The translations under genes and the position numbers were made by a program. The notes beneath the pieces were generated by a model. It worked only from the letters and a program-made list of their open reading frames with translations, searched no databases and was not told the origin of the DNA. Of a DNA stretch of 64,000 bases, positions 14,931 through 47,886 are shown piece by piece; the first letter of the stretch is position 1; each line of letters opens with the position of its first letter. Source of the stretch: Bacteroidales bacterium (GTDB taxonomy: Bacteria; Bacteroidota; Bacteroidia; Bacteroidales; GCA-2748055); assembly GCA_016936975.1 (NCBI GenBank), contig JAFGWU010000039.1, forward strand, positions 21,024 to 85,023, given 5' to 3'.

Positions 14931-16829
14931 ATGAAGAAATCCCTGACAAAAATATTCATTCGCGTTCTGGTTGCCGTCCTGTTAATTCTGACCCCTCAGA
15001 TGTCGGCCATCGACATCTGGGTATCCCCTGCCGGCTCCGATTCGGGACCGGGGACAGAAGAGCAGCCGGTTTTAACGGTTGATGCGGCTCTCAGGAGAGC
15101 GAGGGAACTGCGCCGGCTGAAAGATCCCCGGGTAAACGGCGGGATCAGGATCATCCTTAAGGAAGGAACGTACCCGTTGTATGAACCCATTCTGATCCGG
15201 CCGGAAGATTCCGGTACCGAATCCTCACCAACTTTAATAATGACGGAACCGGAGGGGCAGGCGGTGATCAGCGGAGGGGTTCATGTTCGTAACTGGAAGA
15301 GAGCCGGACGAAATCTTAAGGGATTTCCGGAGGTTTCCCGCGGAAATCTCTGGGTGGCCGATGCGCCTTCAATAGGAGGAAGACCGTTTGAGTTCCGGCA
15401 AATCTGGATAAACGGGAGCAAGGGGCAAAGGGCAGGTACCCTGGGAGACGGAGCGTTACCCCGTATCCTTGGACTTGACAGGGAGCGTGAGGAATTTTTC
15501 ATTCCCGTTCCGGATTTTGATCCCCGGGAGAACGGCGGGCTGGAGTTTGTTATCCATCAATGGTGGGCCATCGCTATTCTCAGGGTGAAGGAGATTATCA
15601 GGGAGGATGGTATGGCCCGGATTACCTTTCATCAGCCTGAAAGCAAGATTGAATTTGAACATCCATGGCCGGCTCCCTTTATTGATAAAGGAGACACGCT
15701 TAATGGCAATTCCGCTTTCTATTTCGTCAATGCACCCGGACTCCTGAATAGGCCCGGAGAGTGGTTTATGGACCCTGAAAAAGACAAGGTATATTACTGG
15801 CCGCGCGAAGGAGAAAAGTTGAATGAAGCCGAAGTGATTGCATCCCGGCTCGAGCAGCTGATTATAATTAGCGGTGCTCCCGATAATCCGGTACGGCATA
15901 TCTCTTTCAGCGGACTGGATTTTCAGCATACAACGTGGATCCGTCCGGCCCGTTTGGGCCACGTACCCATTCAGGCAGGGATGTCACTGCTTGATGCCTA
16001 CAAGCTTAAGACTCCCGGAACCGAAGATAAAGCAGGTCTTGAAAACCAGGCCTGGATTGAACGTCAGACTGCGGCGGTTGAGGTTCAGAACGCTGAAAAC
16101 ATAATTTTCTCAAGATGTAATTTTACCCGTCTTGCAGCTACGGGACTGGATTTTTTCGAGGGTGTGAATCACTGCAATGTCACGGGCTGCCGTTTCAGGG
16201 ATATTGGCGGGACGGCAATCCAGGCGGGTTTCTTCGGTAATTCTGCCACGGAAATACATCTCCCGTATGATCCTGAGGACGAAAGAGAAGTATGTCATCA
16301 TATCAGAATCTCCAATAACCTGATTACCGACTGTACGAATGAAGATTGGGGATGCGTGGGCATCAGCATAGGGTATGCACATCATATTCAGATCGAATAC
16401 AATGAAGTCAGTCATTTAAACTACTCGGGGATCTGTGTGGGATGGGGATGGACATCCACTCTCTCCTGTATGCGGAATAATTTAGTTCATGCCAACCACA
16501 TTCACCATTTTGCCAGAAACATGTATGATGTTGGGGGTATCTATACACTCTCGGCACAGCCCGGAACAGTTATCAGTCATAACAGCATTCACCATCTTGA
16601 GAAAGCGCCTTACGCACACCTTCCCGAACATTATCAATATATATATCTTGATGAAGGTTCATCTTACATCAGGGTGCTGAATAACTGGACTGAAAAGGAC
16701 AAGTTCTTTTCAAATACGCCCGGTCCGGGCAATATTTGGAAAAATAATGGGCCACAGGTTTCGGAGGAGATCCGGGAAGCTGCCGGACTACAGCCAGAAT
16801 TCAGGGACTTATTGACTGAACCCGATTAG
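14931..16829 (+). CDS. Right-handed parallel beta-helix protein (GH141-like)
   Basis: Signal peptide, then 'IWVSPAGSDSGPGTEEQPVLTVDAALRRARELR...GGIRIILKEGTYPLYEPILI'. Beta-helix repeats such as 'HHIRISNNLITDC' and 'HHIQIEYNEVSHL'. Confidence 0.7.
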   Translation: MKKSLTKIFIRVLVAVLLILTPQMSAIDIWVSPAGSDSGPGTEEQPVLTVDAALRRARELRRLKDPRVNGGIRIILKEGTYPLYEPILIRPEDSGTESSPTLIMTEPEGQAVISGGVHVRNWKRAGRNLKGFPEVSRGNLWVADAPSIGGRPFEFRQIWINGSKGQRAGTLGDGALPRILGLDREREEFFIPVPDFDPRENGGLEFVIHQWWAIAILRVKEIIREDGMARITFHQPESKIEFEHPWPAPFIDKGDTLNGNSAFYFVNAPGLLNRPGEWFMDPEKDKVYYWPREGEKLNEAEVIASRLEQLIIISGAPDNPVRHISFSGLDFQHTTWIRPARLGHVPIQAGMSLLDAYKLKTPGTEDKAGLENQAWIERQTAAVEVQNAENIIFSRCNFTRLAATGLDFFEGVNHCNVTGCRFRDIGGTAIQAGFFGNSATEIHLPYDPEDEREVCHHIRISNNLITDCTNEDWGCVGISIGYAHHIQIEYNEVSHLNYSGICVGWGWTSTLSCMRNNLVHANHIHHFARNMYDVGGIYTLSAQPGTVISHNSIHHLEKAPYAHLPEHYQYIYLDEGSSYIRVLNNWTEKDKFFSNTPGPGNIWKNNGPQVSEEIREAAGLQPEFRDLLTEPD

Positions 16830-19299: not shown

Positions 19300-19323
19300 G
19301 ATTCCTATCTGCAGGCAGGAATC
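19300..19323. terminator. Inverted repeat between convergent genes (candidate bidirectional terminator)
   Basis: GATTCCT-N10-AGGAATC, 7-bp perfect arms, spanning the stop codon of the minus-strand GH127 gene and 16 bp past the SSS stop codon. Confidence 0.4.
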
Positions 19324-21368
19324 CAGACCGTCATTTCAGACTTTCCCCTGTTTCCCCATGCAAAATAGGGGATGAGCCGGATGATTAACGGAACGGGTTG
19401 TCGGTCGGATATTTCCCGGTAGAGTTCATCATCCCAATCGTCCTGATTTATGATTAAGGCCTCACCTTTAAGGCTGATTAATTGAGAACCATCTATTTCA
19501 ATCTTTTCAGGCGAAAGGTGAATATCTGCAGGGATTCCGATATCTGATACCCTGACATTTTGCGGTAAATCAGGGGATTCAAGGCAATAAACTATCGGGC
19601 CGCGCCGGACAGCAAGTTCGTTCCGTGTTTCTTCAACAAGCGGGTTGGATTCAATCAGTTTTGTCTTTACAGGGAGTTCGAGCCTGATTTTATCTCCTTT
19701 TCTCCAATTCTTTTCGATCGTCAGGTAAGTTCCGGGAACGACTGGTGTCTGGCATAACTGTTCATTGACATAAACCTTGCTTCCGTCTGCCCAGGAGGGT
19801 ATGCGCAATTTCAGGATGAGATTGTTGCGCGGGACCTCCTCGAGCGTTAACATAACAGTGCCTTCCCAGGGATAATCGGTTTCCTGGTGCAGTATGACCT
19901 TCGAACCGTCAGGCAGGTGTGTATCGAGATGGCTGGATCCGTACAGGTGGAACCATACAGTTCCCTCAGACAGTGAATAAAGATAATTATGTATTTCGGA
20001 GACCGTTCTTACAACATTGGGCGGGCAGCAATTGCACAGTGAAATATATTCCTCCCTTTCCTTGGACCACCTGAGGGTATAAGGAAGATCAAAATCCACC
20101 CTCAGGGGATTCGTATAAAAGTATCTTTTTCCATCCAGGCTGACTGCTGACAGGACGCTGTTATAAAGTGTCTGTTCGACCATCTCGGCATATTTGGCTT
20201 CTCCTGAAATCATCAGCATTCTCCAGTTCCACAGTACGCTGCCAATGTTGGCACAGGATTCATTATGCGCCGTGATGTTTGGTAACTGGTATGGCCGTCC
20301 ATAGGCCTGGTGCACCTGCTGGATGTAAGGCTGATTATAGGTTGTGCCGTCGGGGGATACCCCATCGTATAATGCCCCGCATCCGCCGGTAATGTATAGC
20401 TTGTGTTTGACGAGGTCGTTCCATATCATTTCAAGGGGCCGCAGAAGCGTTGTGTCACCTGTCTCAGCCACCAGGTCGGCCACACCGGCATACAAATAAT
20501 TTGCCCTGACTGCATGGCCAATGGCCTCTGTCTGTTCCCTGAACGGAATCCGGTCCTGATTGTGATCGGTTCCGTTTCTGACCATACGTCTGATATCTAT
20601 CAGGTTTCGCCCCAGGTCGAGATACTTTTTCTCCCCGGTAACCCGGTACAATTCAATTATCCCCATATAGTGGGAAGGACAGATGGCATTCTGGGCGAGT
20701 TCCTCCGGATCACGGTTGTAAAAATCAATCAGAAAATCTGCTGCTTTCACAGCCACGTTTAACAGGGTTTCCTTACCCGTAGCCCGGTAATGCAAACAGG
20801 CTGCCGTCATTAAATGTCCCATATTATAAGTCTCAAAATCGAGACGCTCCCTGAACTCGGCTTTCAGGTCATTGCCAGATCTTTTTCTCTGTTCGATGAT
20901 GACAGGTGTATGGATATAACCATCTTCTCTTTGTGATCCGGCGATGATCCTGATAATGTCATCCATCTGTTCATCCAGTTCCGGCTTTCGGGTTTGCATG
21001 TAAACTGAAACCAGGGATTCGAACCATTTGTAAAAGTCACCATCGTGAAAAGGAGGTCCGGAGTGATTTCCCTCTGCATGTCCCGCCGCAATCTCAAAGT
21101 TTCTGAATGCATGGCTGACATCCGCATCATTCAGGATGCTCCACATGAAGGGTACCATGGTATCCCTGCAGACGATAAAACGTTCAGCCCAGAATCCTGA
21201 TGTCAGGGCAACATCATTCCCGTTTACCCCCATCATCAGGGCAAATGGACTCCGGGAGTTATCTGCTGGTGCTTTGTCCTGTCCATTCAATAACAACGGA
21301 AAGACCAATAAAATGATTACGAAGGCGGGATTTGCAATGGTTACTGATTCCCTGTTCTTTGGATCCAT
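19305..21368 (-). CDS. GH127-like beta-L-arabinofuranosidase
   Basis: 'LTSGFWAERFIVCRDTMVPFMWSIL', 'HDGDFYKWFESLVSVYMQTRKPELDEQMDDIIRIIAGSQREDGYIHTP' and 'SLCNCCPPNVVRTVSEIHNYLYSLSEGTVWFHLYG' (Cys cluster). Confidence 0.85.
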   Translation of the reverse strand: MDPKNRESVTIANPAFVIILLVFPLLLNGQDKAPADNSRSPFALMMGVNGNDVALTSGFWAERFIVCRDTMVPFMWSILNDADVSHAFRNFEIAAGHAEGNHSGPPFHDGDFYKWFESLVSVYMQTRKPELDEQMDDIIRIIAGSQREDGYIHTPVIIEQRKRSGNDLKAEFRERLDFETYNMGHLMTAACLHYRATGKETLLNVAVKAADFLIDFYNRDPEELAQNAICPSHYMGIIELYRVTGEKKYLDLGRNLIDIRRMVRNGTDHNQDRIPFREQTEAIGHAVRANYLYAGVADLVAETGDTTLLRPLEMIWNDLVKHKLYITGGCGALYDGVSPDGTTYNQPYIQQVHQAYGRPYQLPNITAHNESCANIGSVLWNWRMLMISGEAKYAEMVEQTLYNSVLSAVSLDGKRYFYTNPLRVDFDLPYTLRWSKEREEYISLCNCCPPNVVRTVSEIHNYLYSLSEGTVWFHLYGSSHLDTHLPDGSKVILHQETDYPWEGTVMLTLEEVPRNNLILKLRIPSWADGSKVYVNEQLCQTPVVPGTYLTIEKNWRKGDKIRLELPVKTKLIESNPLVEETRNELAVRRGPIVYCLESPDLPQNVRVSDIGIPADIHLSPEKIEIDGSQLISLKGEALIINQDDWDDELYREISDRQPVPLIIRLIPYFAWGNRGKSEMTVWIPACR

Positions 21369-21382
21369 ATTTACGATGGTTG

Positions 21383-24190
21383 TTAATTAATATCAATACT
21401 GCTGTTGAACCGGTAATGGCCCGAACCCGCAATTACTTTTAAATATTCTCCGGTGTATTCAAGCACGGTTATATTTTCTGAATTCCTGAGTTCAGCGTCC
21501 GATTCCCTGACACTGCCGGGTTCAGCGGCCGGAATAAAAATTGTTGCTGTGGTATTTACAGGCACAGAGACGTTAAGATGAAGCGTGGTTCCTTTGACCT
21601 CCCATTTCGAGGAGAGGGTTCCGTAAGGTGTTTGATGGCTCCCGGATGCATAGGAGAGCCGTTCGGTTAAAACGGGTTTGATCACAGACTTTTTATAACC
21701 GGGGACCTCTTTTTCTCTCTGAATTCCTGCAATATTTTCATACATCCACTGTCCAATGGCCCCGTAGGCATAATGGTTAAAGGAATTCATCCCGGCATCC
21801 TGGAACGTGCTGTCCGGTTTAATTCCATCCCACCGCTCCCATATTGTGGTTGCCCCCATGGTAACAGGGTAGAGCCAGGAGGGGTACCTTTTATTGAAAA
21901 GTAAATTGTAAGCCAGATCCTGATAACCCGTATTCGAAAGCACATGACAGATTAACGGGGTTCCCAGGAATCCGGTGGTGATATGTCCGAAGTGTTCAAC
22001 ATCTGCCGCGAGCCTTTCTGCTGCAATGGTTTTGAACTCCTCCGGAACCAGGTCAAAACCAAGTGCCAGGGAGTAGGCGGCCTGTGTACCGGATACCAGC
22101 CTTCCTGTTTCGGTAAAAAATTCCCGGGCAAAGGCAGATTTGATTTTTGGAAGAATAGCTTTATAATGTTCAGCATCCTCATTGTGTCCAAGGATTTCAG
22201 CTATTTTTTGCAGGATCCCCGTTGAGTGGTAAAAATAGGCTGTTGCGATCAGATCTTTATCTGTATTGGCACCGGCATAGCCGTAATCCGGTGCATTGTA
22301 ATGGTAACTCATATATTCTGCAAATGCCAGCCAGTCGCCGAAGTGAAATCCATAGTCGAAGATATACCGCTCGCCTGCATGCCCGACCATATAATCAACC
22401 CAGGCTTTCATGGAATGGTATTGATCCCTGAGGATATTTTCATCGCCGTATATGAGATACATGTTCCATGGGATAAGAATGGCCGCATCGGACCATCCGG
22501 TGGCTCCGTAACCGTCGGACCAGCCTGTTCCGCCTCCGCCATCAACAATCATCGGGACCACCCATGGAACTGAACCATCCTCTTTTTGATCTGCCTCAAG
22601 ATCCTTCAACCATTTCCTGAAAAACGGAACTGTATTCATGTTGAAGGAAGCTGTAGGTGTAAATACCTGCGCATCGCCTGTCCATCCCATACGCTCATCA
22701 CGCTGTGGGCAGTCGGTGGGAATATCCAGGAAATTACCTCTCAGTCCCCATACAATGTTTTCCTGCAATTGATTGATAAGTGAATCAGAGCATTCGAATG
22801 TTCCAACCGGCTCCATATCGGAATGTATTACAATCCCCTGCAGGTCATCGCACGAAACCCGACCCGGATAACCTGAGATCCTTACATACCTGAACCCCTG
22901 GAAGGTAAAATGCGGTTCAAAATGTTCCACGCCTTCGCCTTTGAAGATATAGCGTACCTCCTGGTCTGCCTCACGGAGATTCTCCAAGTAAAAATTTCCC
23001 TCCTTATCAAGAACTTCTGCATGATGGAGCACGATCTCCGTTCCGGCCTCTCCCTTCAAAGCGAATTTTATCCATCCGACCATATTCTGTCCCATATCAA
23101 ATACCAGCTCCCCTGAGGGGGTGATTATCTGTTTCACCGGCTTGATGGTATCTGTGGCCCGGACGGGGACACTGACGGAGGGGACGAGATTAGAGAAACC
23201 GTGGTCTTTTTCAATGCAGTCAAACCATTTAAGATCCCTGTATCCCGGTTGATCCCAGCCGGTCAATTCAAGCCTGGCATCATATACCTCTCCGTCATAT
23301 ATTTCAGATTTCAATATGGGTCCGGAAGCGGATCGCCAGGATTTATCCGAGCAAATAACCTCATGTGATCCATCCTGGAAGGTGATTACCAGTTGCAGGA
23401 GCAATGCAGTTTTTTTACCATAGTGTTCTTTCTCCATTGTCCAGGCGAATGGTCCCCTGAACCAGCCGTCACCCAGTATGGCACCAATGGCATTATCGCC
23501 TTTATTGACGAGTTTAGTGACATTGTACACCTGGTATTGCAGTCTTTTATGATAACTTGTCCAGCCGGGGGTAAAGAGCTGGTCACTGACTTTTTTTCCA
23601 TTAAGGTGGACATGGTAAAGTCCATGAGCCGTCACATATAATTGCGCATTCCGGATTTTCTTCCCTGCATGAAATTCTTTCCTCAGGTATGCGGCTTTAT
23701 TGGGTTTGTTTTCCGCTTCCTCAACCCCCGGTTCAATCCATTCAGCTATCCAATCTTCATCATTCAGAAGTCCCATCTCCCAGAATGCCGGTTGGCTCCA
23801 TTCAGACCGGTTCCCCCTGTTGTCCTCAATTCTCACCTGCCAGTATATACGCTGGCCGCTTTTCAACGGTATCCCATCATAAGGAATGTTAATGGATTGT
23901 CCGGACATTACAATTCCTGATTTCCAGGTATGAGGGCCATCTTTGAGGGCTTCCTCCGTCAGTGCCGCTTTTATTTCATACGCTTTCTGAATTACACTGC
24001 GTTCTGAGGAGACAATCTGCCAGCTCAGGGCAGGTCTTATATTTTCAATTCCGACAGGATTGATCCTGTATTCACAGGTCAGGTTATGCACAGCCGGTCC
24101 GATACTTCCGGACTGGGCCTGAACAGAAATCATTAATGAAACAGCAATGGTAAGGAGTGCGATGCAATGGATGAGCTGTTGATTTTTCAT
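21383..24190 (-). CDS. GH78-like alpha-L-rhamnosidase (copy 1)
   Basis: 'LTCEYRINPVGIENIRPALSWQI', 'LGDGWFRGPFAW', 'IPTDCPQRDERMGWTGDAQVFTPTASFNMN' and 'TTIWERWDGIKPDSTFQDAGMNSFNHYAYGAIGQWMYENIAGI'. Start moved to the ATG at 24190. Confidence 0.95.
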   Translation of the reverse strand: MKNQQLIHCIALLTIAVSLMISVQAQSGSIGPAVHNLTCEYRINPVGIENIRPALSWQIVSSERSVIQKAYEIKAALTEEALKDGPHTWKSGIVMSGQSINIPYDGIPLKSGQRIYWQVRIEDNRGNRSEWSQPAFWEMGLLNDEDWIAEWIEPGVEEAENKPNKAAYLRKEFHAGKKIRNAQLYVTAHGLYHVHLNGKKVSDQLFTPGWTSYHKRLQYQVYNVTKLVNKGDNAIGAILGDGWFRGPFAWTMEKEHYGKKTALLLQLVITFQDGSHEVICSDKSWRSASGPILKSEIYDGEVYDARLELTGWDQPGYRDLKWFDCIEKDHGFSNLVPSVSVPVRATDTIKPVKQIITPSGELVFDMGQNMVGWIKFALKGEAGTEIVLHHAEVLDKEGNFYLENLREADQEVRYIFKGEGVEHFEPHFTFQGFRYVRISGYPGRVSCDDLQGIVIHSDMEPVGTFECSDSLINQLQENIVWGLRGNFLDIPTDCPQRDERMGWTGDAQVFTPTASFNMNTVPFFRKWLKDLEADQKEDGSVPWVVPMIVDGGGGTGWSDGYGATGWSDAAILIPWNMYLIYGDENILRDQYHSMKAWVDYMVGHAGERYIFDYGFHFGDWLAFAEYMSYHYNAPDYGYAGANTDKDLIATAYFYHSTGILQKIAEILGHNEDAEHYKAILPKIKSAFAREFFTETGRLVSGTQAAYSLALGFDLVPEEFKTIAAERLAADVEHFGHITTGFLGTPLICHVLSNTGYQDLAYNLLFNKRYPSWLYPVTMGATTIWERWDGIKPDSTFQDAGMNSFNHYAYGAIGQWMYENIAGIQREKEVPGYKKSVIKPVLTERLSYASGSHQTPYGTLSSKWEVKGTTLHLNVSVPVNTTATIFIPAAEPGSVRESDAELRNSENITVLEYTGEYLKVIAGSGHYRFNSSIDIN

Positions 24191-24230
24191 TGGTTTGTTT
24201 TTCAACGATTATAACGATTGAACGGTTCAT

Positions 24231-24344
24231 TTGCAAATCTAGCCCATTAAATTTATTTTTGCAATAAAACGTTTGCATACAGGAGATTTTGCTATTATTC
24301 TAAGATACACTATTTAAGTATTTTATAGACTGTAAACGTTAACA
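24231..24344. promoter_or_regulatory. Divergent regulatory region A: two LacI-type operators 67 bp apart plus a minus-strand Bacteroidota promoter
   Basis: AAACGTTT core centred at 24270/24271 and TGTAAACGTTAACA at 24331-24344. Minus-strand TTGC-N19-TAGATTTG. Ungapped 114-bp match to region B. Confidence 0.75.
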
Positions 24345-24366
24345 CTAAATTATAATATTCAATATC

Positions 24367-25029
24367 ATGAAAACTGTTGTTGCGATTCATACTGCCATGG
24401 CGATGGTTGAGCCGACAAAAGAATTATTTCAAAAGCATCTGCCCGGTGTAAGGCTGATAAATATTGTGGATGACAGTCTGATACAGGATGTGATCAGGGA
24501 TGGGGAAGTAAAGGCATCGGTTGAGAGCAGGATCCGGCTTTATTACCGGGCTGCTGTGGATGCGGGTGCTGATGTGATATTCAATACCTGTTCCTCGGTT
24601 GGAGAGGTGGCTATCGCTGCGAGAAAAACCCTCCCGGTTCCCCTGGTTAAAATTGATGATGCAATGGCCCGCAAAGCTGTTAAGGAGTATAAAAAGATCG
24701 GTGTAATGGCTACCCTTTCCACAACGCTGAATCCCACCATCAAGCTGATCTCTCGTTTCGCCAGGGAGATGTCTGCTGATGTTACCGTTACAGAAGGACT
24801 TGTTGATGGCGCTTTTCAGTCATTGATGGATGGGAACCTGGATGATCACGATCAGAAGGTCCTTAACAAAGCTCAGGAAATATCTTCGCAGGTGGATGTG
24901 ATTTTGCTTGCCCAGGGTTCCATGGCCAGGGTGGAGAATACCATCATTGCCAGGACCGGTAAGCCGGTCCTTACAAGTCCTTTACTGGGTGTTCTGGAGG
25001 TGAAATCCACACTTGAGCAATTAAATTAA
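24367..25029 (+). CDS. Asp/Glu/hydantoin racemase-like protein
   Basis: 'DVIFNTCSSVGEVA' and 'KKIGVMATLSTTLNPT' are Asp/Glu racemase superfamily-like. The second expected Cys position reads 'LLAQGSMAR'. Confidence 0.7.
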   Translation: MKTVVAIHTAMAMVEPTKELFQKHLPGVRLINIVDDSLIQDVIRDGEVKASVESRIRLYYRAAVDAGADVIFNTCSSVGEVAIAARKTLPVPLVKIDDAMARKAVKEYKKIGVMATLSTTLNPTIKLISRFAREMSADVTVTEGLVDGAFQSLMDGNLDDHDQKVLNKAQEISSQVDVILLAQGSMARVENTIIARTGKPVLTSPLLGVLEVKSTLEQLN

Positions 25030-25035
25030 TCTGTT

Positions 25036-26274
25036 TTGAAAAAGAGAAATATTGTTCTGATCCTGTTGATGATTGTAGGAGTCATCACCTTTCTCGACAG
25101 GATTAACATCAGTGTTGCCGGTGCCAGTATCATGGAGGATCTTGGTTTGTCGGGCAAGCAATGGGGATGGATTCTGAGTGCATTTATCCTGTCTTACGGT
25201 TTACTGCAGGTCCCACTCGGTGCCTGGGGAGATCGGGCCGGACAGCGCAAGGTACTTTCGTTCATAGTACTCTGGTGGTCCCTCTTTACCATCCTTACAG
25301 GATTTGCCAATGGATTCATCATGCTGATTATTGTCCGGTTTTTATTTGGAATCGGTGAAGCCGGGGCCTACCCGAACATGACCGGTACGGTAGGCAGGTG
25401 GTTTCCCGGGAAAGAGACTGCCAAAGCACAGGGCTTTCTCTGGGCGGCCAGCCGAATCGGTGGTGCACTGACCCCGTTGATTGTGATCCCTGTCATTATA
25501 AACCTGGGGTGGCGGATGGCATTCTATATTCTCGGGGCATTGGGATTTATCTGGGTTATTGTCTGGTTCGCGTGGTTCAGGGATTTTCCTGCACAGAAAA
25601 AGGGTATCTCCCGGCAAGAACTTGACGAGATAGGGAATAGTGAGGTTAGAGCAGAAAAAATAAAGATTCCCTGGAAATCCATTTTACGAAAGAACCAGTT
25701 CTGGATTTTGCTGGGGATGTATTTTTTCTATGCATGGGGGAGCTGGTTTTTCTTTTCATGGTTCCCTGTATTTATGGAAGAGGGCAGGGGATTTGCCAAA
25801 AGTGAGCTCACCTATGCCGTGGCCGTTCCTTTTCTGTTCAGTGTGATCGGTAACATCTCAGGGGGATATATAAGCGACAGGCTTTCCCTGAAATACGGAG
25901 TAAGAATCGGCAGGAAGGCAGTTGGAGTGTCGGCCCTGATAATTTCTTCCATATTGATGTTTCTTGCGGGATTCATCCCCGGGAAGATACAGGTATTTAT
26001 CTTTCTTTCCCTCTGTTTCGGAATCTTTGACCTGATGCTTCCGGCGGCATGGGCCATCTGCCTGGATATCGGAAAGAAATTCGGAGGCGCTGTATCGGGT
26101 GCCATGAATACGGCAGGAAATATCGGGGGATTCCTGTGCGCGTTAATGTTCGGGTACCTGGTTGATCTAACGGGAAATTATAATTTTCCGCTCTATGTGA
26201 TTGCCTTTATGCTCTTAATAAGTGCCATCCTGTTCTCGTTTATCGATCCGACACGGAAACTGGTGGAAGATTGA
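25036..26274 (+). CDS. MFS transporter (anion:cation symporter / hexuronate-type)
   Basis: 'VITFLDRINISVAGASIMEDLGLSGKQWGWILSAFILSYGLLQVPLGAWGDRAGQRKVL', 'FLFGIGEAGAYPNMTGTVGRWFP'. TTG start. Confidence 0.9.
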   Translation: MKKRNIVLILLMIVGVITFLDRINISVAGASIMEDLGLSGKQWGWILSAFILSYGLLQVPLGAWGDRAGQRKVLSFIVLWWSLFTILTGFANGFIMLIIVRFLFGIGEAGAYPNMTGTVGRWFPGKETAKAQGFLWAASRIGGALTPLIVIPVIINLGWRMAFYILGALGFIWVIVWFAWFRDFPAQKKGISRQELDEIGNSEVRAEKIKIPWKSILRKNQFWILLGMYFFYAWGSWFFFSWFPVFMEEGRGFAKSELTYAVAVPFLFSVIGNISGGYISDRLSLKYGVRIGRKAVGVSALIISSILMFLAGFIPGKIQVFIFLSLCFGIFDLMLPAAWAICLDIGKKFGGAVSGAMNTAGNIGGFLCALMFGYLVDLTGNYNFPLYVIAFMLLISAILFSFIDPTRKLVED

Positions 26275-26287
26275 TTTTCGGAATTAT

Positions 26288-27697
26288 CTAAACAAGCTTT
26301 TTAAACAATTCTGAGAGAGAACCGGTCCCTCCCACATTGCCGGGAAATATGATAAAGGGTATTTTGCGGCCTTTTTCTTCATATCTTATTTTTAATACCG
26401 GAACGCCGGGCAGGATCTGCCCTGAAACGGTCGAAGAAGTTACATTCAGTCCGTCCACAAGAATATCGTGTGAAGTGATTCCTCCTTTCGATACAATATA
26501 GGAAGGAGAGATCGGGAGCTGTTTTATGACGGATGCAAGGAAACCGGATATTTTCCGTCCGCTATGAACGGCCGCATCCATGTTTTCTGACCGGAGTTCT
26601 TTCCTGGTAGTGTAAAGGGCAGGTGTTTTGTCCCTGTTGAACGCATGTACCAGGGCATTCATGGTTTGTTTGAAACAGGTTTCCTCATCCTGCAATATTT
26701 GCATCACATCGATTTCAATTCCTTCAACCTCCGAGTTTTCAAGCAATTCATTCAATTGACGGGTGGTCCTGGGAACATGCGAGCCGATCACAAAAATCCC
26801 TTTTGAACCGCCTGTCCCGAGTTCCTGTCCGGTAAGCAAATCTTTGTCGGGGATACCGCTCAGCGCTTTTGGCAGGGAGGAGGAAGTTCTCATAATGATT
26901 GCCCGGTCGGCCGGGCCCATCATTTCGGTTAATGCAAAACTGAACCTGTGGAGATCAGGGTATTCAACTGCATTAATAATAAGGAACCTGCGGCCGGAAA
27001 GGGATGTAATTTTTTCTTGTAGTTCCGGGGATTCAAGTTTCCTCAACTCTTCCAGGGAAATAGATCCAATCTTTTTTCTGCTCAATGTCCCGGCCGATTT
27101 TTCTATTATATAATCTGTCAGGTTGGAGTTTTTGTAACCAAAAAGCGTGTCGCGTGCAAATTCACTCCGGGCGACCGGAAGGAGATTGTCTCCCTCGACC
27201 ATGTATTGAATATTCCCTGCAGTGATTCTTCCCGCCTCAAGAAGGGCAGGTACAAAGAAAACCGGAAGTTCAACCTCAATATTATGCTCGTGAAGTTTTT
27301 CCAGGATGGCGTCTGTTTCAAGGGGAAAGTGTCCCCTGAGAGTGGAATCGCTCCTGCTGATTATGATAAGTTTATAATGGCAGGACTCATTAGCCCGAAT
27401 GAGCGATTCAACAATCTCGAGGTTAAGTTTCCGGGCAATCTCGGGACTCCGGGATCTTGAGTTTGAGAGTATGTACAGAAGGTGGGAATTGCCCTGCAGG
27501 GCTTTCTTAACAAGGGTGACACTCCATTTTGTCAGCAGCGTGCATCCATGGACGGTCTGGATACCCGTCGGATCATCGTCAATGACGAAAATTTTTGCTC
27601 TTTTCTTTTCAAGGTTTTCCGAAATACGATACCTGATATTGCCCGTCTGAACGGAGGGAACCTTTTTGATGATATCGGAAAGATATTGATAAATCAC
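26288..27697 (-). CDS. Four-carbon acid sugar kinase family protein (DUF1537, OtnK/DtnK/OiaK-like)
   Basis: 'IFVIDDDPTGIQTVHGCTLLTKW', 'SRSDSTLRGHFPLETDAI', 'VSKGGITSHDIL' and 'IFPGNVGGTGSLSELF' are DUF1537 hallmarks. Confidence 0.9.
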   Translation of the reverse strand: MIYQYLSDIIKKVPSVQTGNIRYRISENLEKKRAKIFVIDDDPTGIQTVHGCTLLTKWSVTLVKKALQGNSHLLYILSNSRSRSPEIARKLNLEIVESLIRANESCHYKLIIISRSDSTLRGHFPLETDAILEKLHEHNIEVELPVFFVPALLEAGRITAGNIQYMVEGDNLLPVARSEFARDTLFGYKNSNLTDYIIEKSAGTLSRKKIGSISLEELRKLESPELQEKITSLSGRRFLIINAVEYPDLHRFSFALTEMMGPADRAIIMRTSSSLPKALSGIPDKDLLTGQELGTGGSKGIFVIGSHVPRTTRQLNELLENSEVEGIEIDVMQILQDEETCFKQTMNALVHAFNRDKTPALYTTRKELRSENMDAAVHSGRKISGFLASVIKQLPISPSYIVSKGGITSHDILVDGLNVTSSTVSGQILPGVPVLKIRYEEKGRKIPFIIFPGNVGGTGSLSELFKKLV

Positions 27698-27718
27698 AAT
27701 CAGTTAATTAAATAATAT

Positions 27719-30469
27719 TCAATCTGTTTTGATGATCTTGCCTGTAACCGTTGAATAATTAAATAATACCCGGTAGAAATAAATGCCCGGATCAAGCGAT
27801 TCGGGAACCCAGGGCATGGTGTGACTGCCTGCCGGCATCTGTCCGCTGTAAAGATTTTCGACCAAACGACCGTCGACATTGAAGACCTGAATATCCAGAT
27901 TTCCGTTTTGAGGAAGATCAACCTGTAGTCTCATATGATCCCTGAACGGATTTGGATAGACGTTTACACTGAACTGGCCGCTGGTTGCTGATCCCGGTCT
28001 TTCTGTTGTTGCGAAATCCATATCGAATTCAGCCATGGTAAGAGCAGACCAGGTATTGTTACTGAATGCCCTGGCTTTAATCACTGTATTTTTATCAATA
28101 TAGACAGGATTGGAATAGAGCGTGGCAAATTCAGAGGTTCCTCCACCGATTTGTCTAGGGTCGTTGTCATCGGCAGCATAGTAAATATCTCCTGTTTCTG
28201 CAAATATTTCCAGATTTAACGGTTCTGATATCTCCCCGCCATAATGACTGAAGGTTGGTGCATCGATATCGGGGTAGAGTCCTTCATTCCTGAACTGCTG
28301 AAAAACGATATCCGAACGGTCGGGAAAATAATCCGATAAAAGGGCATTTTTTGCTACCAGCCAGTGGTCGTTTCTGGTATAAAGTTCTGCCACCTCATCC
28401 CGCGGTTGCACATCCCTCCGATAATCCCCCCACCTTGCACTTTCCGTAATAACAGCCATGTCCAGTTCATTTGCCAGTTCATTGAAACGATCAGCCGTGA
28501 CTGTGGCAGTCATTGCGCCTCCATCGAAGAAATGAGCCCTGAGGTGATCGGCAAAGCGCAGCCTGAACTCCTCATTTTGTTTCAGTTCTTTATATATGGT
28601 TGTGGGTTCACCCTGTATGTCATCAACCATGTTTACACTTTTATCCGTCAGGGAATTTTCCGCATCCCAGCTGAAAAATCTGAAACCAGCATCGTTCCTG
28701 ACCCTGTTTCTGGCTGCCAGCCAATTATTGTGATCCCAGTCGTTGTTACCTATATAAACATTTAAAATGATGTAATTTATCAGGTTATCCACGTCCAGCA
28801 GGTTTGAATACCCTGCATTCAGGGTTCCATCGGCATTTCTTCCCTGGATCCTGAAATATGCAGTATTGTCGGACAGGCCGCCACCCACCTGTGCCATTAA
28901 TTGATTCCAGGCTATCTGGTTTCCGTCCACCACATCATTATGGTCCTTCACCATATCATAATCCTCTTCCTTTCCGCCCCAATAAGATTCAGTAAAATCG
29001 TTATTCACTTTTTCCGTTACGCAATATACGCCCCAGTAAAGGCTATTCAGATACAGATGCACAAATTTGTTATGAGGAGAGAGATCTCCCATATCAAGCT
29101 GACTGTTTTTGGCGAATGGATCCTGGAGAAATGTAGTATTGATGCGCTGACTGACATTGTTATGCATCCACGAATAATTATATCCTGACCTCAGGATTAA
29201 CGTGTTAAAGTCATTGGTTGCATCACGATCGTCTGTAAAAAAATTATAGTTCAGCCTGGTTGGCCCGAATTCGCTTCTGAAGACTAGCCTGAAGGAGTGT
29301 TTCTGGCTGTTTTCAGGCACTCTGCTGTTTCCACCGTGGAGTTTGATCCCGCAGTTTATTTGAAAATCCGAATGGTTTTCCGGATCAAGATATTCCAGGG
29401 ATATTTGTCGTTCCCAGTCAATCCCCAGGGCACCGGCCCCTGAACTTCCGGTATAGATATAAATCCCGCCGCTTTCGGGGTCATCACTGTGTGAGAAAAT
29501 ATTCCCCGGATCGGTTACGACGGATAATGTTGGTATCGATGTAAGGGCTGTTTCCATCAGGAGAGCATAACCAGGGTCATTACAAACCTCCGGGTCCATT
29601 TCGTAGTCGGAGGGTGCATTGCCATCTGAAAATTTTAAGGGGCTCCATTCCTGCGGGTATCCTTCCGGATCATCGGGTTGTTGAAGAATATCTTCTATAA
29701 ACAGATAGGTATGGGTAATTACATCGCTGTACTGGCCGCTGTTAGTTACCGCAACTGCACTTAAGGGAGTTGTGGTTCCGATCTGGATGGGAGTGCTGTA
29801 TAAAGTACCGTTCAAACTGTTGGGGCGGCTGCCGTCAGTCGTATAATAGATAGCCAGATTTGCATCTGCCACTGAAAGCTGAACTTCAAAAGGCCCTTCA
29901 TAAAATCCCCTGCCTTTGCTGAAAACAGGAGTAAATACCTGGTTCCCGAGGGTGTTTTCACTTCCGGGTGTTGGTGTCTCCATAAAAGTGTGCTGGGAGG
30001 ATATTATTCCGTAAGAAACATCCTGTCTCTGGACCGGAAAGGTTGGCCCGTAGGAGTATGAGATTGTCCTGCCGTCAGGCTCTGTTAAAGCCAGGTATTC
30101 TCCCGAACCGGATAGTTTAAAGCTGGTGTGCAGGTTATTTGACGGATTGATCCTGTTTTTACCCGAGGCATAAATTACAAGGTATTCCCCTGCAACAATG
30201 GTAATATCCGGAAAGGTCCATTTATTCAGATTACCGGCATTATCGGTCAGATACCACCCCGTTAAATTAATATCGGATGATCCGGGATTATGGATTTCAA
30301 GCCAATCCGGGTAATCTCCGTCCTCATCCTGGAGTGTGGAACCGTTTATGGCCATGAACTCACTGATAAGTAATTTATGAGTGTCCGCAGCATAGAGGAG
30401 GTTTGAAATTGTCACTCCTGTTATTATTGTTAATATTCCCAGGTAATTTCTTTTAGTTTTCTTAAACAT
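27719..30469 (-). CDS. Lamin-tail domain plus CotH-kinase-like domain, chitobiase/FN3-like segments and T9SS sorting domain
   Basis: 'LLISEFMAINGSTLQDEDGDYPDWLEIHNPGSSDINLTGWYLTDNAGNLNKWTFP' (lamin tail). 'LHGGNSRVPENSQKHSFRLVFRSEFG...YLNSLYWGVYCVTEKV' (CotH). 'VYPNPFRDHMRLQVDLPQ' (T9SS). Start moved to the ATG at 30469. Confidence 0.85.
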   Translation of the reverse strand: MFKKTKRNYLGILTIITGVTISNLLYAADTHKLLISEFMAINGSTLQDEDGDYPDWLEIHNPGSSDINLTGWYLTDNAGNLNKWTFPDITIVAGEYLVIYASGKNRINPSNNLHTSFKLSGSGEYLALTEPDGRTISYSYGPTFPVQRQDVSYGIISSQHTFMETPTPGSENTLGNQVFTPVFSKGRGFYEGPFEVQLSVADANLAIYYTTDGSRPNSLNGTLYSTPIQIGTTTPLSAVAVTNSGQYSDVITHTYLFIEDILQQPDDPEGYPQEWSPLKFSDGNAPSDYEMDPEVCNDPGYALLMETALTSIPTLSVVTDPGNIFSHSDDPESGGIYIYTGSSGAGALGIDWERQISLEYLDPENHSDFQINCGIKLHGGNSRVPENSQKHSFRLVFRSEFGPTRLNYNFFTDDRDATNDFNTLILRSGYNYSWMHNNVSQRINTTFLQDPFAKNSQLDMGDLSPHNKFVHLYLNSLYWGVYCVTEKVNNDFTESYWGGKEEDYDMVKDHNDVVDGNQIAWNQLMAQVGGGLSDNTAYFRIQGRNADGTLNAGYSNLLDVDNLINYIILNVYIGNNDWDHNNWLAARNRVRNDAGFRFFSWDAENSLTDKSVNMVDDIQGEPTTIYKELKQNEEFRLRFADHLRAHFFDGGAMTATVTADRFNELANELDMAVITESARWGDYRRDVQPRDEVAELYTRNDHWLVAKNALLSDYFPDRSDIVFQQFRNEGLYPDIDAPTFSHYGGEISEPLNLEIFAETGDIYYAADDNDPRQIGGGTSEFATLYSNPVYIDKNTVIKARAFSNNTWSALTMAEFDMDFATTERPGSATSGQFSVNVYPNPFRDHMRLQVDLPQNGNLDIQVFNVDGRLVENLYSGQMPAGSHTMPWVPESLDPGIYFYRVLFNYSTVTGKIIKTD

Positions 30470-30498
30470 GCCAAATAATAAATAGAAAAGAAATGAAT

Positions 30499-31320
30499 TC
30501 AACTTCCCAGCAATTCCCTGTATTCTGAAGGGGTCATGATATCACCTCCCATTGAAATTACCAGGTTGGCGATCTCTTCAACCAGGATGGAATTGTGTTC
30601 GGCGATTTTTCCCTGTCTGTAATAAAATGAATCTTCAAAGCCCACTCTCAAAACGGTTGTTCCCATGGCAATGGCTCCGGCCAGAAATGAGAAATCCACC
30701 ATTCCGTCATGGGTTAATCCCCAGTGTGCTCCAGTCTCAACAAGTGAAGAAATAAAAGTAAGGTTTCTCATATCTGCCTTCAATGCTCCTTTGATTCCAA
30801 AGCAGAAGTTAAAATGGAGCGGGCGCTCCAGAACCCCTTCGTTTGCGAGTTGAATGCTGGTTTCCACCATGCTCACATCAAAACACTCCAGTTCAGGCAC
30901 TACTAAGGTTTCCTTCATTCTTTTTGCCCAGTAACGTATATCCGGAAGGGTATTGATATATACCTCCTCTCCGAAGTTAATGGACCCCATATTCAATGAT
31001 GCTACTTCAACCCGGGGATCGGTCAGACAAACAGAACGTTCTTCAAGAGAGAGTTCCGCCAGCCCTCCTGTGGATCCCTGGATGACGATATCGGAACCGG
31101 CAGTGATCAGATCGAGTGTCCGGCTGAATTCCTTCATTTCGGAAGTTTGGCGGCCCTTTTCATCCCTTACATGAAGATGGACCATGCCGGCTCCTTTTTC
31201 TGCGCAGGCGATGACCTCCTCAGCTATTTCTTCAGGTTTCAGGGGGTTATTACAGCGATTCGGTACCGGTTTCCCGAAATGGCTTACCGGAGCCACAGTG
31301 ATCAGTACTTTTTTATTCAT
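30499..31320 (-). CDS. BKACE family (beta-keto acid cleavage enzyme, DUF849)
   Basis: 'LITVAPVSHFGKPVPNRCNNPLKPEEIAEEVIACAEKGAGMVHLHVRDEKGRQTSE' is the BKACE signature with the HLH metal site. Confidence 0.9.
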   Translation of the reverse strand: MNKKVLITVAPVSHFGKPVPNRCNNPLKPEEIAEEVIACAEKGAGMVHLHVRDEKGRQTSEMKEFSRTLDLITAGSDIVIQGSTGGLAELSLEERSVCLTDPRVEVASLNMGSINFGEEVYINTLPDIRYWAKRMKETLVVPELECFDVSMVETSIQLANEGVLERPLHFNFCFGIKGALKADMRNLTFISSLVETGAHWGLTHDGMVDFSFLAGAIAMGTTVLRVGFEDSFYYRQGKIAEHNSILVEEIANLVISMGGDIMTPSEYRELLGS

Positions 31321-31363
31321 AGAAATAATGATGAAATGTGAAAAAGATTGGCATCATATTAAT

Positions 31364-31477
31364 TTGCAAATCTATTGGTTTAAAATTATTTTTGCAATAA
31401 AACGTTTGCATTTATTGCACGAAGATGCAATTTTAAGATATTGGAAATGAGATTATAATTAAATGTAAACGTTAACA
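31364..31477. promoter_or_regulatory. Divergent regulatory region B: two LacI-type operators 67 bp apart plus a minus-strand Bacteroidota promoter
   Basis: AAACGTTT core centred at 31403/31404 and TGTAAACGTTAACA at 31464-31477. Minus-strand TTGC-N19-TAGATTTG. Ungapped 114-bp match to region A. Confidence 0.75.
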
Positions 31478-31524
31478 ACAAATAATGCACTTTTATCACT
31501 TCCCAAGTAAAAGACTTTTCAGTT

Positions 31525-34257
31525 ATGAAAAAAACCGGAATCATTTCTTTTTTTCTGCTTTTGATTATTCTGCTGGCAGGTTGCGGCAAACCAAAAAATG
31601 TCATTATCATATCAGGTAATGATGATCCGAAAACCCGCTTTGGAGTGGAATGGCTTTCCGCCAGGTTAGCTGAAGCAGGCTTCTCGGTAGAGGTTCGTAA
31701 TACCCCGGCCGACACTGTTCATCATTCAATCATTATCGGATTGAAAAAAGATGCTCTGGTAGACGAATTTCTCAGGACAGAAACCCTCGATTCGGTTCTG
31801 CTATGCGATAATCAGGAGGGATATACGCTGATTTCGGGAAGGTCCCGGACCATAATAGCGGGGAATGATCCTTCAGGAACACTCTATGGATGCATCGAGC
31901 TTGCAAACAGAATAAAGGAAAACGGAATAATTCCTGAGATAACATTTTCGGATTATCCCGGAATGGTTTTACGTGGTGCGTGTGTCGGTCTGCAAAAAAC
32001 AGAATACCTTCCGGGCAGGGGTGTTTATGAATATCCTTATACGCCTGAGAACTTCCCATGGTTCTATGATCAGGAATTATGGATACGCTACCTGGACATG
32101 CTTGTGGAGAACAGGTTCAATGCATTGTTCCTCTGGAACGGTCATCCGTTCGCATCATTGGTGCGTCTGGAAGATTATCCTTATGCTGTTGAAGTGGACA
32201 GCGTCTCTTTCAGAAAGAATCAGGAAATCTTCAGGTTTCTGACTCTTGAGGCCGAAAAACGTGGTATCTGGGTTATACAGATGTTCTATAATATAATTGT
32301 ATCAAAACCCTTTGCTGAGAAACACCAGATTAGAACCCAGGATCGATCCCGTCCAATTACGCCCTTGATATCCGATTATACCCGAAAATCTGTTGCGTCA
32401 TTCATTGAAAATTATCCGAACGTTGGTTTAATGGTTTGCCTTGGGGAGGCAATGAATACTTATGAGGACGATGTTGAGTGGTTTACCGGAACCATTATTC
32501 CGGGGATCAGGGACGGATTGGAATCAATCGGCAGTGATGTTGAACCCCCTCTGATCCTGAGAGGCCATGATACCGATGCAAAAATGGTTATGGAAGCTGC
32601 TTTGCCCCTCTATCATAATCTTTATACCGTCTACAAATACAACGGAGAGTCCCTGACAACCTACACTCCAAGGAATTCGTGGGCCGATATTCCTATGGCG
32701 CTCAGTGAACTCGGTTCCGTTCATATTTCAAACGTTCATATTCTGGCCAACCTTGAACCGTTCCGGTATGGATCTCCGGATTTTATCCAGAAAAGTACCA
32801 TTGCAATGCATGAAATACAGGGAGCAAACGGATTGCATCTCTATCCTCAGACCTCATACTGGGACTGGCCCTATTCTGCAGATAAAGTGGACGGGCGTTT
32901 GCTTCAGATTGAGCGGGACTGGGTATGGTACAAAGCGTGGGGCAGATATGCATGGAACAGTTACCTCGAGCGGGAGAAGGAAGCAGATTACTGGAGCAAG
33001 CAGTTTGAAAGTTATTATGGATGCAGGGGATATGGCAGGGAGATTCTCAAAGCCTATGAGGAAACTGGTGAAATTGCGCCGAAGCTTTTAAGAAGATTTG
33101 GTATTTCCGATGGGAACAGGCAGACTCTGATGCTGGGGATGTTTATGAGTCAGCTCGTTAATCCTTATAAGTACACAGTTTATGAAAGTTTCCTGAATTC
33201 AAACGGACCAGAGGGTGAGATTCTTATTGATTATGCCAGGAAGGAGTTTCATAACGAACCGCATAACGGTGAAACGCCGCCACAGATAATACAAGAGGTA
33301 ATGGATCATGCCGCTTCTGCCATTGAAGCCATTGAAAAAGCAGCTCCTCATGTTACCAACAATATCGAAGAGTTCGAAAGGCTCAGGAATGATATATTCT
33401 GCTACAGGGATATAGCCGGTTTTTACGCGGACAGGGTTAAAGCAGCCATGTTGATTTTGAGATACAGGTACTCCAGGGATCCGGAGGATCTCAAATCCGC
33501 TTTGCCGTTTATAGAGGCAAGTTTGCAGACATTCAAAGACCTTTCAGATAGAACCGAAGGCACTTATTTGTACGCGAACAGCATGCAGACTGCCCAGAGA
33601 AGGATCCCCATTTCCGGAAGAGATGGGAAAAATAAGACATGGAGCGAGTTGCTGGTTCATTATGAAGAGGAGATGGAAATATTTAACAGGAATGTTCAGA
33701 TGTTATCCGGTGAACCGGATTCTCAAGCAACCCGGAATTATGAAACCCTTATTCCTGCGCGGATAAAAGTTTTGGAGCCTGAACCGGAATGGTTCAAATA
33801 TGAAATGGGACAACAGGTATATTCCGACCGGAATTTCAGGATAGAAGCGTTTGCTCCTGAGTTGTTGAATCTGGAGGGTCTGAAACTTTCAATGGAGAGG
33901 CAGGTGAAAGAGGGCACCAGGATAAGGTTCAGAAATGAAGAACCGGTGAAGGTGCTGGTCGGTTATTTTAACGGGCACAGCTACTCCATCCTGTCACCCC
34001 CAACACTTGAAACCAATGCTAATGCGAATGATCGCGGACAGGCGGATATAAAAATAGCGAATGGATTGCATATTCCCGGGCTTTATCCTGTAAACATTTA
34101 CACGTATCTGTTTGAACCGGGGGAGAATATCCTGGAGCTGGGTGCCGGCAGGGTGATGGTACTGGGTTTTATGGATGGAAACCAACAGATCAGGGTTCGT
34201 GATGCTGGAATTGGAAGTGAAGAGGAGGAATTGCCCATCGATTGGTTATTCTATTAG
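31525..34257 (+). CDS. Alpha-glucuronidase-like lipoprotein (GH67-related fold, atypical)
   Basis: Lipobox LAGC. N-terminal 'SARLAEAGFSVEV...IIAGNDPSGTLYGCIELANRI' resembles GH67/GH20 N-terminal domains. TIM-barrel 'DMLVENRFNALFLWNGHPFASLV'. Confidence 0.65.
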   Translation: MKKTGIISFFLLLIILLAGCGKPKNVIIISGNDDPKTRFGVEWLSARLAEAGFSVEVRNTPADTVHHSIIIGLKKDALVDEFLRTETLDSVLLCDNQEGYTLISGRSRTIIAGNDPSGTLYGCIELANRIKENGIIPEITFSDYPGMVLRGACVGLQKTEYLPGRGVYEYPYTPENFPWFYDQELWIRYLDMLVENRFNALFLWNGHPFASLVRLEDYPYAVEVDSVSFRKNQEIFRFLTLEAEKRGIWVIQMFYNIIVSKPFAEKHQIRTQDRSRPITPLISDYTRKSVASFIENYPNVGLMVCLGEAMNTYEDDVEWFTGTIIPGIRDGLESIGSDVEPPLILRGHDTDAKMVMEAALPLYHNLYTVYKYNGESLTTYTPRNSWADIPMALSELGSVHISNVHILANLEPFRYGSPDFIQKSTIAMHEIQGANGLHLYPQTSYWDWPYSADKVDGRLLQIERDWVWYKAWGRYAWNSYLEREKEADYWSKQFESYYGCRGYGREILKAYEETGEIAPKLLRRFGISDGNRQTLMLGMFMSQLVNPYKYTVYESFLNSNGPEGEILIDYARKEFHNEPHNGETPPQIIQEVMDHAASAIEAIEKAAPHVTNNIEEFERLRNDIFCYRDIAGFYADRVKAAMLILRYRYSRDPEDLKSALPFIEASLQTFKDLSDRTEGTYLYANSMQTAQRRIPISGRDGKNKTWSELLVHYEEEMEIFNRNVQMLSGEPDSQATRNYETLIPARIKVLEPEPEWFKYEMGQQVYSDRNFRIEAFAPELLNLEGLKLSMERQVKEGTRIRFRNEEPVKVLVGYFNGHSYSILSPPTLETNANANDRGQADIKIANGLHIPGLYPVNIYTYLFEPGENILELGAGRVMVLGFMDGNQQIRVRDAGIGSEEEELPIDWLFY

Positions 34258-43800: not shown

Positions 43801-44868
43801 ATGAGCGGAAAATGGAAGGAAAACTGGGAGGAATCCAGGAAGAACTATATCGATTGGTGGAATGGTACCGGGCTGGTCATCAGTATGTGGGAACACATGG
43901 AAAAAGAGGGTGAACCGGTTGAAAATGTCCTCCCGCCGGAACCACCGACAAACATTGAGCACTACTGGTTTAATCCCGGTTGGAGGGCAAAAAATATTCA
44001 TTACAGCCTGTCAAAAAGTGTTTTAAAAGCGGATATCCCCCCCGTGGCAAATACGCATCTCGGACCGGGTTCTCTTGCAGCTATACTGGGAGCTGAACTG
44101 GAAGGAGGGGAAGATACGATCTGGATCAGGAAACCCGGAAACTTTGATCCGGAAATAAAACTGAATGAAAACAACAGCTACTGGTTACTGCACCAGGAGC
44201 TTCTAAAATCCTGCCGCAAATACGCAGAAGATAAATATTATGTGGGCATGCCTGACCTTGTAGAAGGCCTTGATGTTTTGGCAAGCCTGAAGGGGACTGA
44301 TGAGACCCTTATGGATATGATCCTGTATCCTGAAAAGACCGCTGAACAGTTGCAGAAAATAAATGATATCTATTTAGAGGTATTCAACCGTTTGTATGAC
44401 ATTATAAGGGTTGGTGATGAAATGGCATTCTGCTATTTTTCATTATGGGCACCCGGAAAAACTACAAAAATTCAGTCCGACATTTCCGTGATGATCTCTG
44501 AGGAGGATTTCCGGAAGTTTGCCCAACCCTATTTCCGTGAACAGTGCCGGAACATAGAATATACGCTTTATCATCTTGATGGTGTGGATGCCATCCGGCA
44601 CCTGGATGCCATCCTGGAGATTGAGGAGCTTAAGGCAGTCCAGTGGACACCAGGCTACGGCCAGCCGCAGGGCGGTGACTCAGGATGGTACAACCTTTAT
44701 AAAAGAATAAAATCCGCCGGCAAGTCAGTAATGCCCTGCTGGGTGACTGTGGAGGAGATGGAACCCTTGCTGGATTATGTCGGCCCGGAGGGAATGAATA
44801 TCCTGATGGATTTCAGGTCGGAAAAGGATGTTGACAGGGCACTGGAAATAAGGGAACGTTATCGGTGA
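43801..44868 (+). CDS. Uroporphyrinogen decarboxylase (URO-D)-like protein, HLDG variant
   Basis: 'TLYHLDGVDAIRHLDAILEIEELKAVQWTPG' and C-terminal 'GMNILMDFRSEKDVDRAL' are URO-D-like. Confidence 0.75.
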   Translation: MSGKWKENWEESRKNYIDWWNGTGLVISMWEHMEKEGEPVENVLPPEPPTNIEHYWFNPGWRAKNIHYSLSKSVLKADIPPVANTHLGPGSLAAILGAELEGGEDTIWIRKPGNFDPEIKLNENNSYWLLHQELLKSCRKYAEDKYYVGMPDLVEGLDVLASLKGTDETLMDMILYPEKTAEQLQKINDIYLEVFNRLYDIIRVGDEMAFCYFSLWAPGKTTKIQSDISVMISEEDFRKFAQPYFREQCRNIEYTLYHLDGVDAIRHLDAILEIEELKAVQWTPGYGQPQGGDSGWYNLYKRIKSAGKSVMPCWVTVEEMEPLLDYVGPEGMNILMDFRSEKDVDRALEIRERYR

Positions 44869-47874: not shown

Positions 47875-47886
47875 AACTTATCATAC

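Follow-up and report, generated by a model that had tools for sequence, protein, structure and literature searches.

A candidate gene module for the catabolism of aceric acid in a rhamnogalacturonan-II locus of a Bacteroidales bacterium

Few plant polysaccharides match rhamnogalacturonan-II (RG-II) in complexity; the hydrolases for its dismantling are known. One of the sugars in question is aceric acid (3-C-carboxy-5-deoxy-L-xylose), a rare branched sugar acid that in its free form is an aldose with a carboxyl group on C3. In the literature searched, no breakdown route for aceric acid was found to be described, nor any work on bacterial use of the odd sugar acids of RG-II. The closest described systems handle other compounds: in D-apiose catabolism the kinase OiaK phosphorylates 3-oxo-isoapionate and OiaX decarboxylates 3-oxo-isoapionate-4-phosphate, and the kinase OtnK acts on 3-oxo-tetronate. 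In the catabolism of deoxyribonate an SDR dehydrogenase makes 2-deoxy-3-keto-ribonate, and a glycerate kinase follows (Price et al., 2019, PMC6365646). Here we analyze a gene module for a racemase-like protein, a transporter, a DUF1537 kinase and a BKACE enzyme in a stretch of 64,000 nucleotides, the window, from contig JAFGWU010000039.1 of a Bacteroidales bacterium (assembly GCA_016936975.1).

Gene content and control regions of the module

Judged by its gene content, the window is an RG-II locus, and we think it rather probable that the module serves RG-II digestion at the inner membrane and in the cytoplasm, by consuming the aceric acid freed by the aceric acid hydrolase AceA. Families were assigned by hidden Markov model (HMM) profile searches with gathering or curated cut-offs. 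A sequence-only reading of the window had described five genes in two convergent units bounded by twin-operator regions, and all five open reading frames (ORFs), their families and both operator regions were confirmed. The forward strand encodes a 220-aa protein of the Asp/Glu racemase superfamily (24367..25029; PF01177, 68.6 bits, cut-off 31), the proposed aceric acid isomerase, and a 412-aa MFS transporter of acid-sugar type (25036..26274; MFS_1, 211 bits), the proposed aceric acid importer. Encoded on the reverse strand are a 469-aa DUF1537 kinase of the DDDPTGIQTVHG subfamily (26288..27697; PF07005, 150 bits, and PF17042, 106 bits), which may act on a ketose, a secreted 927-aa CotH/LTD/T9SS protein (27719..30502) with a CotH domain, a lamin-tail domain and a T9SS tail, and a 273-aa BKACE enzyme (30499..31320; PF05853, 245 bits, cut-off 24.8), the proposed C-C cleaving enzyme for a phosphorylated beta-keto acid. 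The gap between the converging units is 13 bp (26274/26288). The CotH protein is encoded in the kinase/BKACE unit and had been counted as part of the module; it was rejected as a member, being absent from all other cassettes.

The racemase-like protein has allantoin racemase as its profile-nearest solved chain (E 1.3e-4). For the transporter the closest named model is TIGR00893 (D-galactonate transporter), with 255.7 bits under a cut-off of 395, and its orthologues in other cassettes are 55-71% identical. Both DUF1537 domains of the kinase score above the gathering threshold, and the N- and C-terminal motifs are conserved. The kinase gave no match to the OiaK model NF042436 (cut-off 700) and stayed far below the cut-offs of the D-threonate kinase model for DtnK (NF047819, 59.6 bits, cut-off 450) and the 3-oxo-tetronate kinase model for OtnK (NF043035, 46.0 bits, cut-off 350). 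A contig scan with this kinase as the lone query returned one distant locus, which lacks a BKACE gene. The BKACE gene is present in a single copy in the 3.48 Mb draft genome, and profile and alignment show that the metal-binding and catalytic residues of its product (HxH, STGG, VPE, RxGFED) are intact. Its nearest solved structure is 2Y7D (Kce), and it scores 244 bits with the Kce model NF052387, under the cut-off of 382. The BKACEs of the cassettes form one clade with a support of 100/100, separate from the other BKACEs of the order.

The module is flanked by two RG-II operons. On one side lies the operon of AceA (GH127; 19305..21368, reverse strand; NF049879, 1072 bits, cut-off 950), the source of the proposed substrate; its first gene encodes a GH78 alpha-L-rhamnosidase (21383..24205, reverse strand) and is divergent from the racemase-like gene. 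On the other side, divergent from the BKACE gene, begins the operon of a GH138 alpha-D-galacturonidase (31525..34257, forward strand; NF049878, 1416 bits, cut-off 1300), an RG-II marker. The two divergent control regions (24206..24366 and 31321..31524) hold an identical 26-nt block, TTATTTTTGCAATAAAACGTTTGCAT (24253-24278 and 31386-31411), and each contains one perfect copy of TGTAAACGTTAACA, a predicted LacI-type operator (24331-24344 and 31464-31477). Allowing one mismatch, TGTAAACGTTAACA gave 6 strand-matches at only 3 places in the window, compared with 0.10 expected; similar one-mismatch sites lie directly before a LacI-type gene and before an Fe-ADH gene upstream of the window. Since operators and blocks are common to both flanks, the module shares its control regions with the AceA operon on one side and with the GH138 operon on the other.

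Recurrence of the cassette and its linkage to AceA

The neighborhood analysis of DUF1537 and BKACE genes proposed by the sequence-only reading bore out the module: the genes for the racemase-like protein, the transporter, the kinase and BKACE stand together, without CotH, in genomes G208, G211, G250, G251, G253 and G260-G263. G252 has the four genes split over two contigs; the contig of G269 stops after the kinase gene. In G108 (L090:15889-19998 with L091:219-1136) and G247 (L135:2-4005) the genes of the racemase-like protein and the transporter share an operon not with kinase and BKACE genes but with those for a split transketolase and a transaldolase-cupin protein, a third back-end for the racemase-like protein. 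Related DUF1537 kinases were also seen at L017:3970-9144 and L020:11538-16970, together with GntR, an isocitrate/isopropylmalate-type dehydrogenase, a cyclase and DUF5060 glycosidases and without BKACE; we read these loci as a different acid-sugar pathway, and the kinase of G223 is frameshifted.

To compare the distribution of the racemase-like gene with that of AceA, carriers of the former were counted at E < 1e-50 and AceA at its curated cut-off. In the order sample (247 genomes) the racemase-like gene is found in 4 genomes and AceA in 10, and 4/4 carriers have AceA (3/3 without the source genome). The class sample (395 genomes) contains 5 carriers and 12 genomes with AceA, with AceA present in 5/5 carriers (4/4 without the source genome). 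Over both samples, with the source genome excluded, 7/7 carriers have AceA above the cut-off. The hypergeometric probabilities, again without the source genome, are 3.4e-5 (order) and 3.3e-7 (class), values that overstate independence, since the carriers are kin within families. Within family f108 the racemase-like gene tracks AceA over 13 genomes, except in one 70%-complete and one fragmented genome.

These data bear on the reading that the cassette works independently, on a small acid of the threonate or tartrate type from diet or host, and stands in the RG-II locus by chance. The cassette often lies amid housekeeping genes, and in G208 and G211 it is distant from genes for carbohydrate-active enzymes, as this reading would have it. 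However, the sampled carriers of the racemase-like gene, which stem from six families, all have AceA above the cut-off except G262 and the fragmented G247 (in which AceA fragments lie at contig ends), the operators in the window are common to the AceA operon, and in G348 and G563 the racemase-like gene is directly linked to AceA. We regard a chance placement as highly improbable.

The direct linkage to AceA is found in a different kind of block. Four genomes of other orders (G348, G563, G377 and G334) contain a block encoding a RuBisCO-like protein (RLP), a DUF1537 kinase, the racemase-like protein and a BASS transporter. In G348 the RLP gene is located 4 bp from AceA, and the congener G442 has the same flanks (74-78% DNA identity) and is missing exactly the 4.6 kb block. 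The best model for the block RLPs is OiaX with 500-517 bits (cut-off 700) and for the block kinases OiaK (NF042436) with 372-429 bits (cut-off 700), and by these scores they are sister families of OiaX and OiaK, not members. As the racemase-like gene of these relatives is accompanied by an RLP, the BKACE in the window seems to stand in for that protein.

OiaK and OiaX are enzymes of apiose breakdown, which makes apiose the most serious rival substrate. The module would then follow the conversion of apiose to apionate and 3-oxo-isoapionate, with the kinase phosphorylating the latter and BKACE (an OiaX-like protein in the relatives) cleaving the product. The nearness of the block kinases and RLPs to OiaK and OiaX is in line with this, and apiosidase-type GH140 genes are present in the locus. 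Yet the scores of the blocks are clearly under the equivalog cut-offs, no dehydrogenase or lactonase is found in any block, the transporters are of anion type, and the linkage of module and block is to AceA. In addition, G254 keeps GH140 and the operon assigned below to Dha, and has neither AceA nor the racemase-like gene. A separate operon for a fucose-isomerase-family protein, a glycerol-kinase-like FGGY kinase and a split transketolase stands beside AceA in f111 genomes without the racemase cassette (L109:4148-8919; L242, L243, L244, L247); it is found in G111, G265, G267 and G268, and in G259 without a called isomerase ORF. With its glycerol-kinase-like kinase this operon appears to fit apiose better, though it may also be an alternative aceric acid route. 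All in all, we consider apiose an unlikely substrate of the module.

A proposed route for aceric acid

What was computed is the integrity of the module, its co-occurrence and linkage with AceA, the shared operators and the exchange between BKACE and OiaX-like proteins; from these results we infer the substrate and the reactions. In the proposed route the MFS transporter would import aceric acid, and the racemase-like protein would convert the aldose into its ketose isomer, the beta-keto acid HOCH2-CO-C(OH)(COO-)-CHOH-CH3. This keto-acid product was predicted before the OiaK/OiaX-like partners came to light. The DUF1537 kinase, as its family suggests, would phosphorylate the terminal CH2OH of the ketose, and BKACE may then cleave the phosphorylated beta-keto acid by decarboxylation or by a retro-aldol or retro-Claisen reaction, in the role of the OiaX-like RLP. 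The end products would be dihydroxyacetone phosphate (DHAP), CO2 and acetaldehyde, with a 5-deoxypentulose-1-phosphate aldolase needed if the BKACE step is a decarboxylation. The BKACE cleavage is the least certain of these steps.

The racemase-like protein was seen with three back-ends: a DUF1537 kinase and BKACE, an OiaK-like kinase and an RLP, and a transketolase and a transaldolase. No other enzyme is shared by all three, which makes the racemase-like protein the prime candidate for a shared first step. The ketose carries the HOCH2-CO-C(OH) motif that is cleaved by transketolases, which would explain the back-end of the G108 type. We therefore put forward, tentatively and as a proposal that could well be wrong in its particulars, that a single-Cys protein of the Asp/Glu racemase superfamily is an aceric acid aldose-ketose isomerase, which opens the first described route for this sugar and feeds three interchangeable back-ends, and that BKACE fills the place of a RuBisCO-like decarboxylase.

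Aceric acid may also be the substrate while the order of the steps differs: the racemase-like protein could be a true racemase, an epimerase or a decarboxylase, with for example epimerization or decarboxylation coming first and BKACE carrying out a transfer to acetyl-CoA. The superfamily includes racemases, maleate isomerase and arylmalonate decarboxylase, and BKACE with acetyl-CoA has a precedent for a sugar acid in deoxyribonate catabolism (PMC6365646). On the other side, only the first catalytic cysteine is kept: Cys75 is invariant, and the second site is a serine in all members (Ser185 in the window protein), so that a cysteine in both half-sites, as in two-cysteine amino acid racemases, is not found in this family, which speaks against such a racemase. 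Also, the occurrence of the same protein with three back-ends is easiest to understand if one common ketose is made. This variant is the less likely form of an aceric acid route, if one to be taken seriously.

Several points weigh against aceric acid as the substrate or against the isomerase route as drawn. To our knowledge, no aldose-ketose isomerization has been described in the Asp/Glu racemase superfamily. Structure work on Kce is said to have established that the BKACE mechanism requires an alpha hydrogen; the proposed substrate has none, and thus decarboxylation, retro-aldol cleavage and transfer to acetyl-CoA are all possible for BKACE. AceA occurs without the module in, for example, G133, G165, G442 and G111, several such genomes being in family f111, and G262 (f111, 77% complete) has the module and no AceA above the cut-off. 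Kinase and BKACE are present without the racemase-like gene or AceA in G014 and G228. Apiose and Dha are likewise set free by every RG-II degrader, and co-occurrence alone therefore cannot name the sugar.

The sugar acids Dha and Kdo are a further possible source of substrate. Both are anions that are set free in this locus; cleavage of Dha could give four-carbon acids, on which DUF1537 kinases act (PMC10971088 and family knowledge). The same contig, however, contains an operon that would account for Dha. It lies ~8.4-15.5 kb upstream of the window start (L002:4458-11554) and comprises genes for LacI, Fe-ADH, a DHDPS-type aldolase, PdxA2, a second DUF1537 kinase (DUF1537b) that differs from the module kinase, and an SSF transporter, with PdxA2, DUF1537b, Fe-ADH and the aldolase at ~10-14 kb; L002 additionally holds SusC/SusD and PL1. 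The set of aldolase, SSF, Fe-ADH, PdxA2 and DUF1537b is kept in G208, G108, G251, G219, G211, G111, G254, G248, G263 and G064, and is partial at a contig end in G264. Adjacent to it or close by is the Dha hydrolase gene (BT1020-type GH143) in G208, G108, G251, G252, G064 and the source genome, and the set occurs without the racemase-like gene in G248, G254, G219, G064, G111 and G264; G248, like G254, also lacks AceA. Cleavage of Dha would yield pyruvate and a four-carbon uronate, which would be reduced to a tetronate, phosphorylated and oxidized with loss of CO2 to DHAP. This operon is thus, as far as we infer from its genes, a separate conserved pathway fitting Dha, and therefore Dha was rejected as the natural substrate of the module; that the module serves Dha or Kdo seems quite improbable. 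The lack of a Dha hydrolase was dropped as a discriminator, as the G208 locus seemed to be without GH143 and a genome search located the gene elsewhere.

The upstream operon also qualifies two statements of the sequence-only reading. That the usual partners are absent holds for the window, which has no PdxA2, class II aldolase or RLP; on the contig, PdxA2, Fe-ADH and a DHDPS-type aldolase are present upstream. Co-regulated partners nearby were to have made this a known pathway, and they touch the module in form only, because they have their own DUF1537 kinase in a separate conserved operon fitting Dha. The analysis supports the suggested different route for a glycan-derived acid sugar and narrows it to RG-II as the glycan and aceric acid as the best candidate sugar; in relatives an RLP does accompany the racemase-like gene.

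Further enzymes encoded in the window are a split GH2/GH137, an apiosidase-type GH140, a BT1020-like GH143 Dha hydrolase, GH141, GH106, a GH95-like protein and others. The protein encoded at 12724-14919 joins an esterase and a xylose-isomerase-like TIM barrel (AP_endonuc_2), and in G563 and G377 its halves are separate adjacent genes. A 355-aa protein (43801-44868) gave no Pfam, NCBIfam or PDB match; copies with 49-61% identity are found in the RG-II loci of G219 and G111, and the G219 copy adjoins SSF and GH31. At 46470-47549 a URO-D/MtaA-like methyltransferase adjoins SSF and GH31, and the counterpart neighborhood in G219 (L103:12458-13096 and 15575-16246) encodes proteins that by eye resemble corrinoid proteins and reactivases; corrinoid-dependent O-demethylation of the 2-O-methyl sugars of RG-II is a possible function. 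Just ahead of the RhaT symporter gene, a short ORF (47551-47885) resembles L-rhamnose mutarotase by eye.

Comparison with described pathways

For aceric acid, and likewise for Dha, the analysis arrives at a defined set of genes that can be tested. Should the proposal hold, the racemase superfamily would gain a new activity, BKACE and RuBisCO-like proteins would be exchangeable solutions for one step, and annotators could distinguish RG-II degraders able to use up aceric acid from those that would leave it to others.

Among the described systems, Kce of lysine fermentation shares the PF05853 fold and the catalytic residues with the window BKACE, which differs in its score under the cut-off, its separate 100/100 clade and the absence of adjoining lysine fermentation genes. 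Deoxyribonate catabolism is likewise a sugar-acid pathway with genes for BKACE and an MFS transporter, and it includes cleavage of the beta-keto acid; in contrast, the module has no SDR dehydrogenase and no glycerate kinase, and has a DUF1537 kinase. With the tetronate pathways (LtnD/OtnI/OtnK/OtnC, and DtnK/DenK with PdxA2; PMC12540250 and PMC10971088) the module has in common a DUF1537 kinase, an acid-sugar MFS transporter and DHAP as the likely end product. Unlike them, it is without a dehydrogenase, OtnI, OtnC and PdxA2, and the PdxA2 set of the contig has another kinase.

Closest is the OiaK/OiaX branch of D-apiose catabolism, which also combines a DUF1537 kinase with an enzyme cleaving a beta-keto-acid phosphate and to which the racemase-linked proteins of relatives are nearest. 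The proposed ketose would be the methyl homologue of 3-oxo-isoapionate, with CHOH-CH3 replacing CH2OH. The module differs in its BKACE instead of an RLP, in its entry enzyme from the racemase superfamily and in the absence of an apionate dehydrogenase or lactonase; its kinase does not match OiaK, and the proteins of the relatives stay under the equivalog cut-offs. Taken together, we see the module as a candidate variant on the OiaK/OiaX scheme in which the entry enzyme is new and BKACE replaces the RLP.

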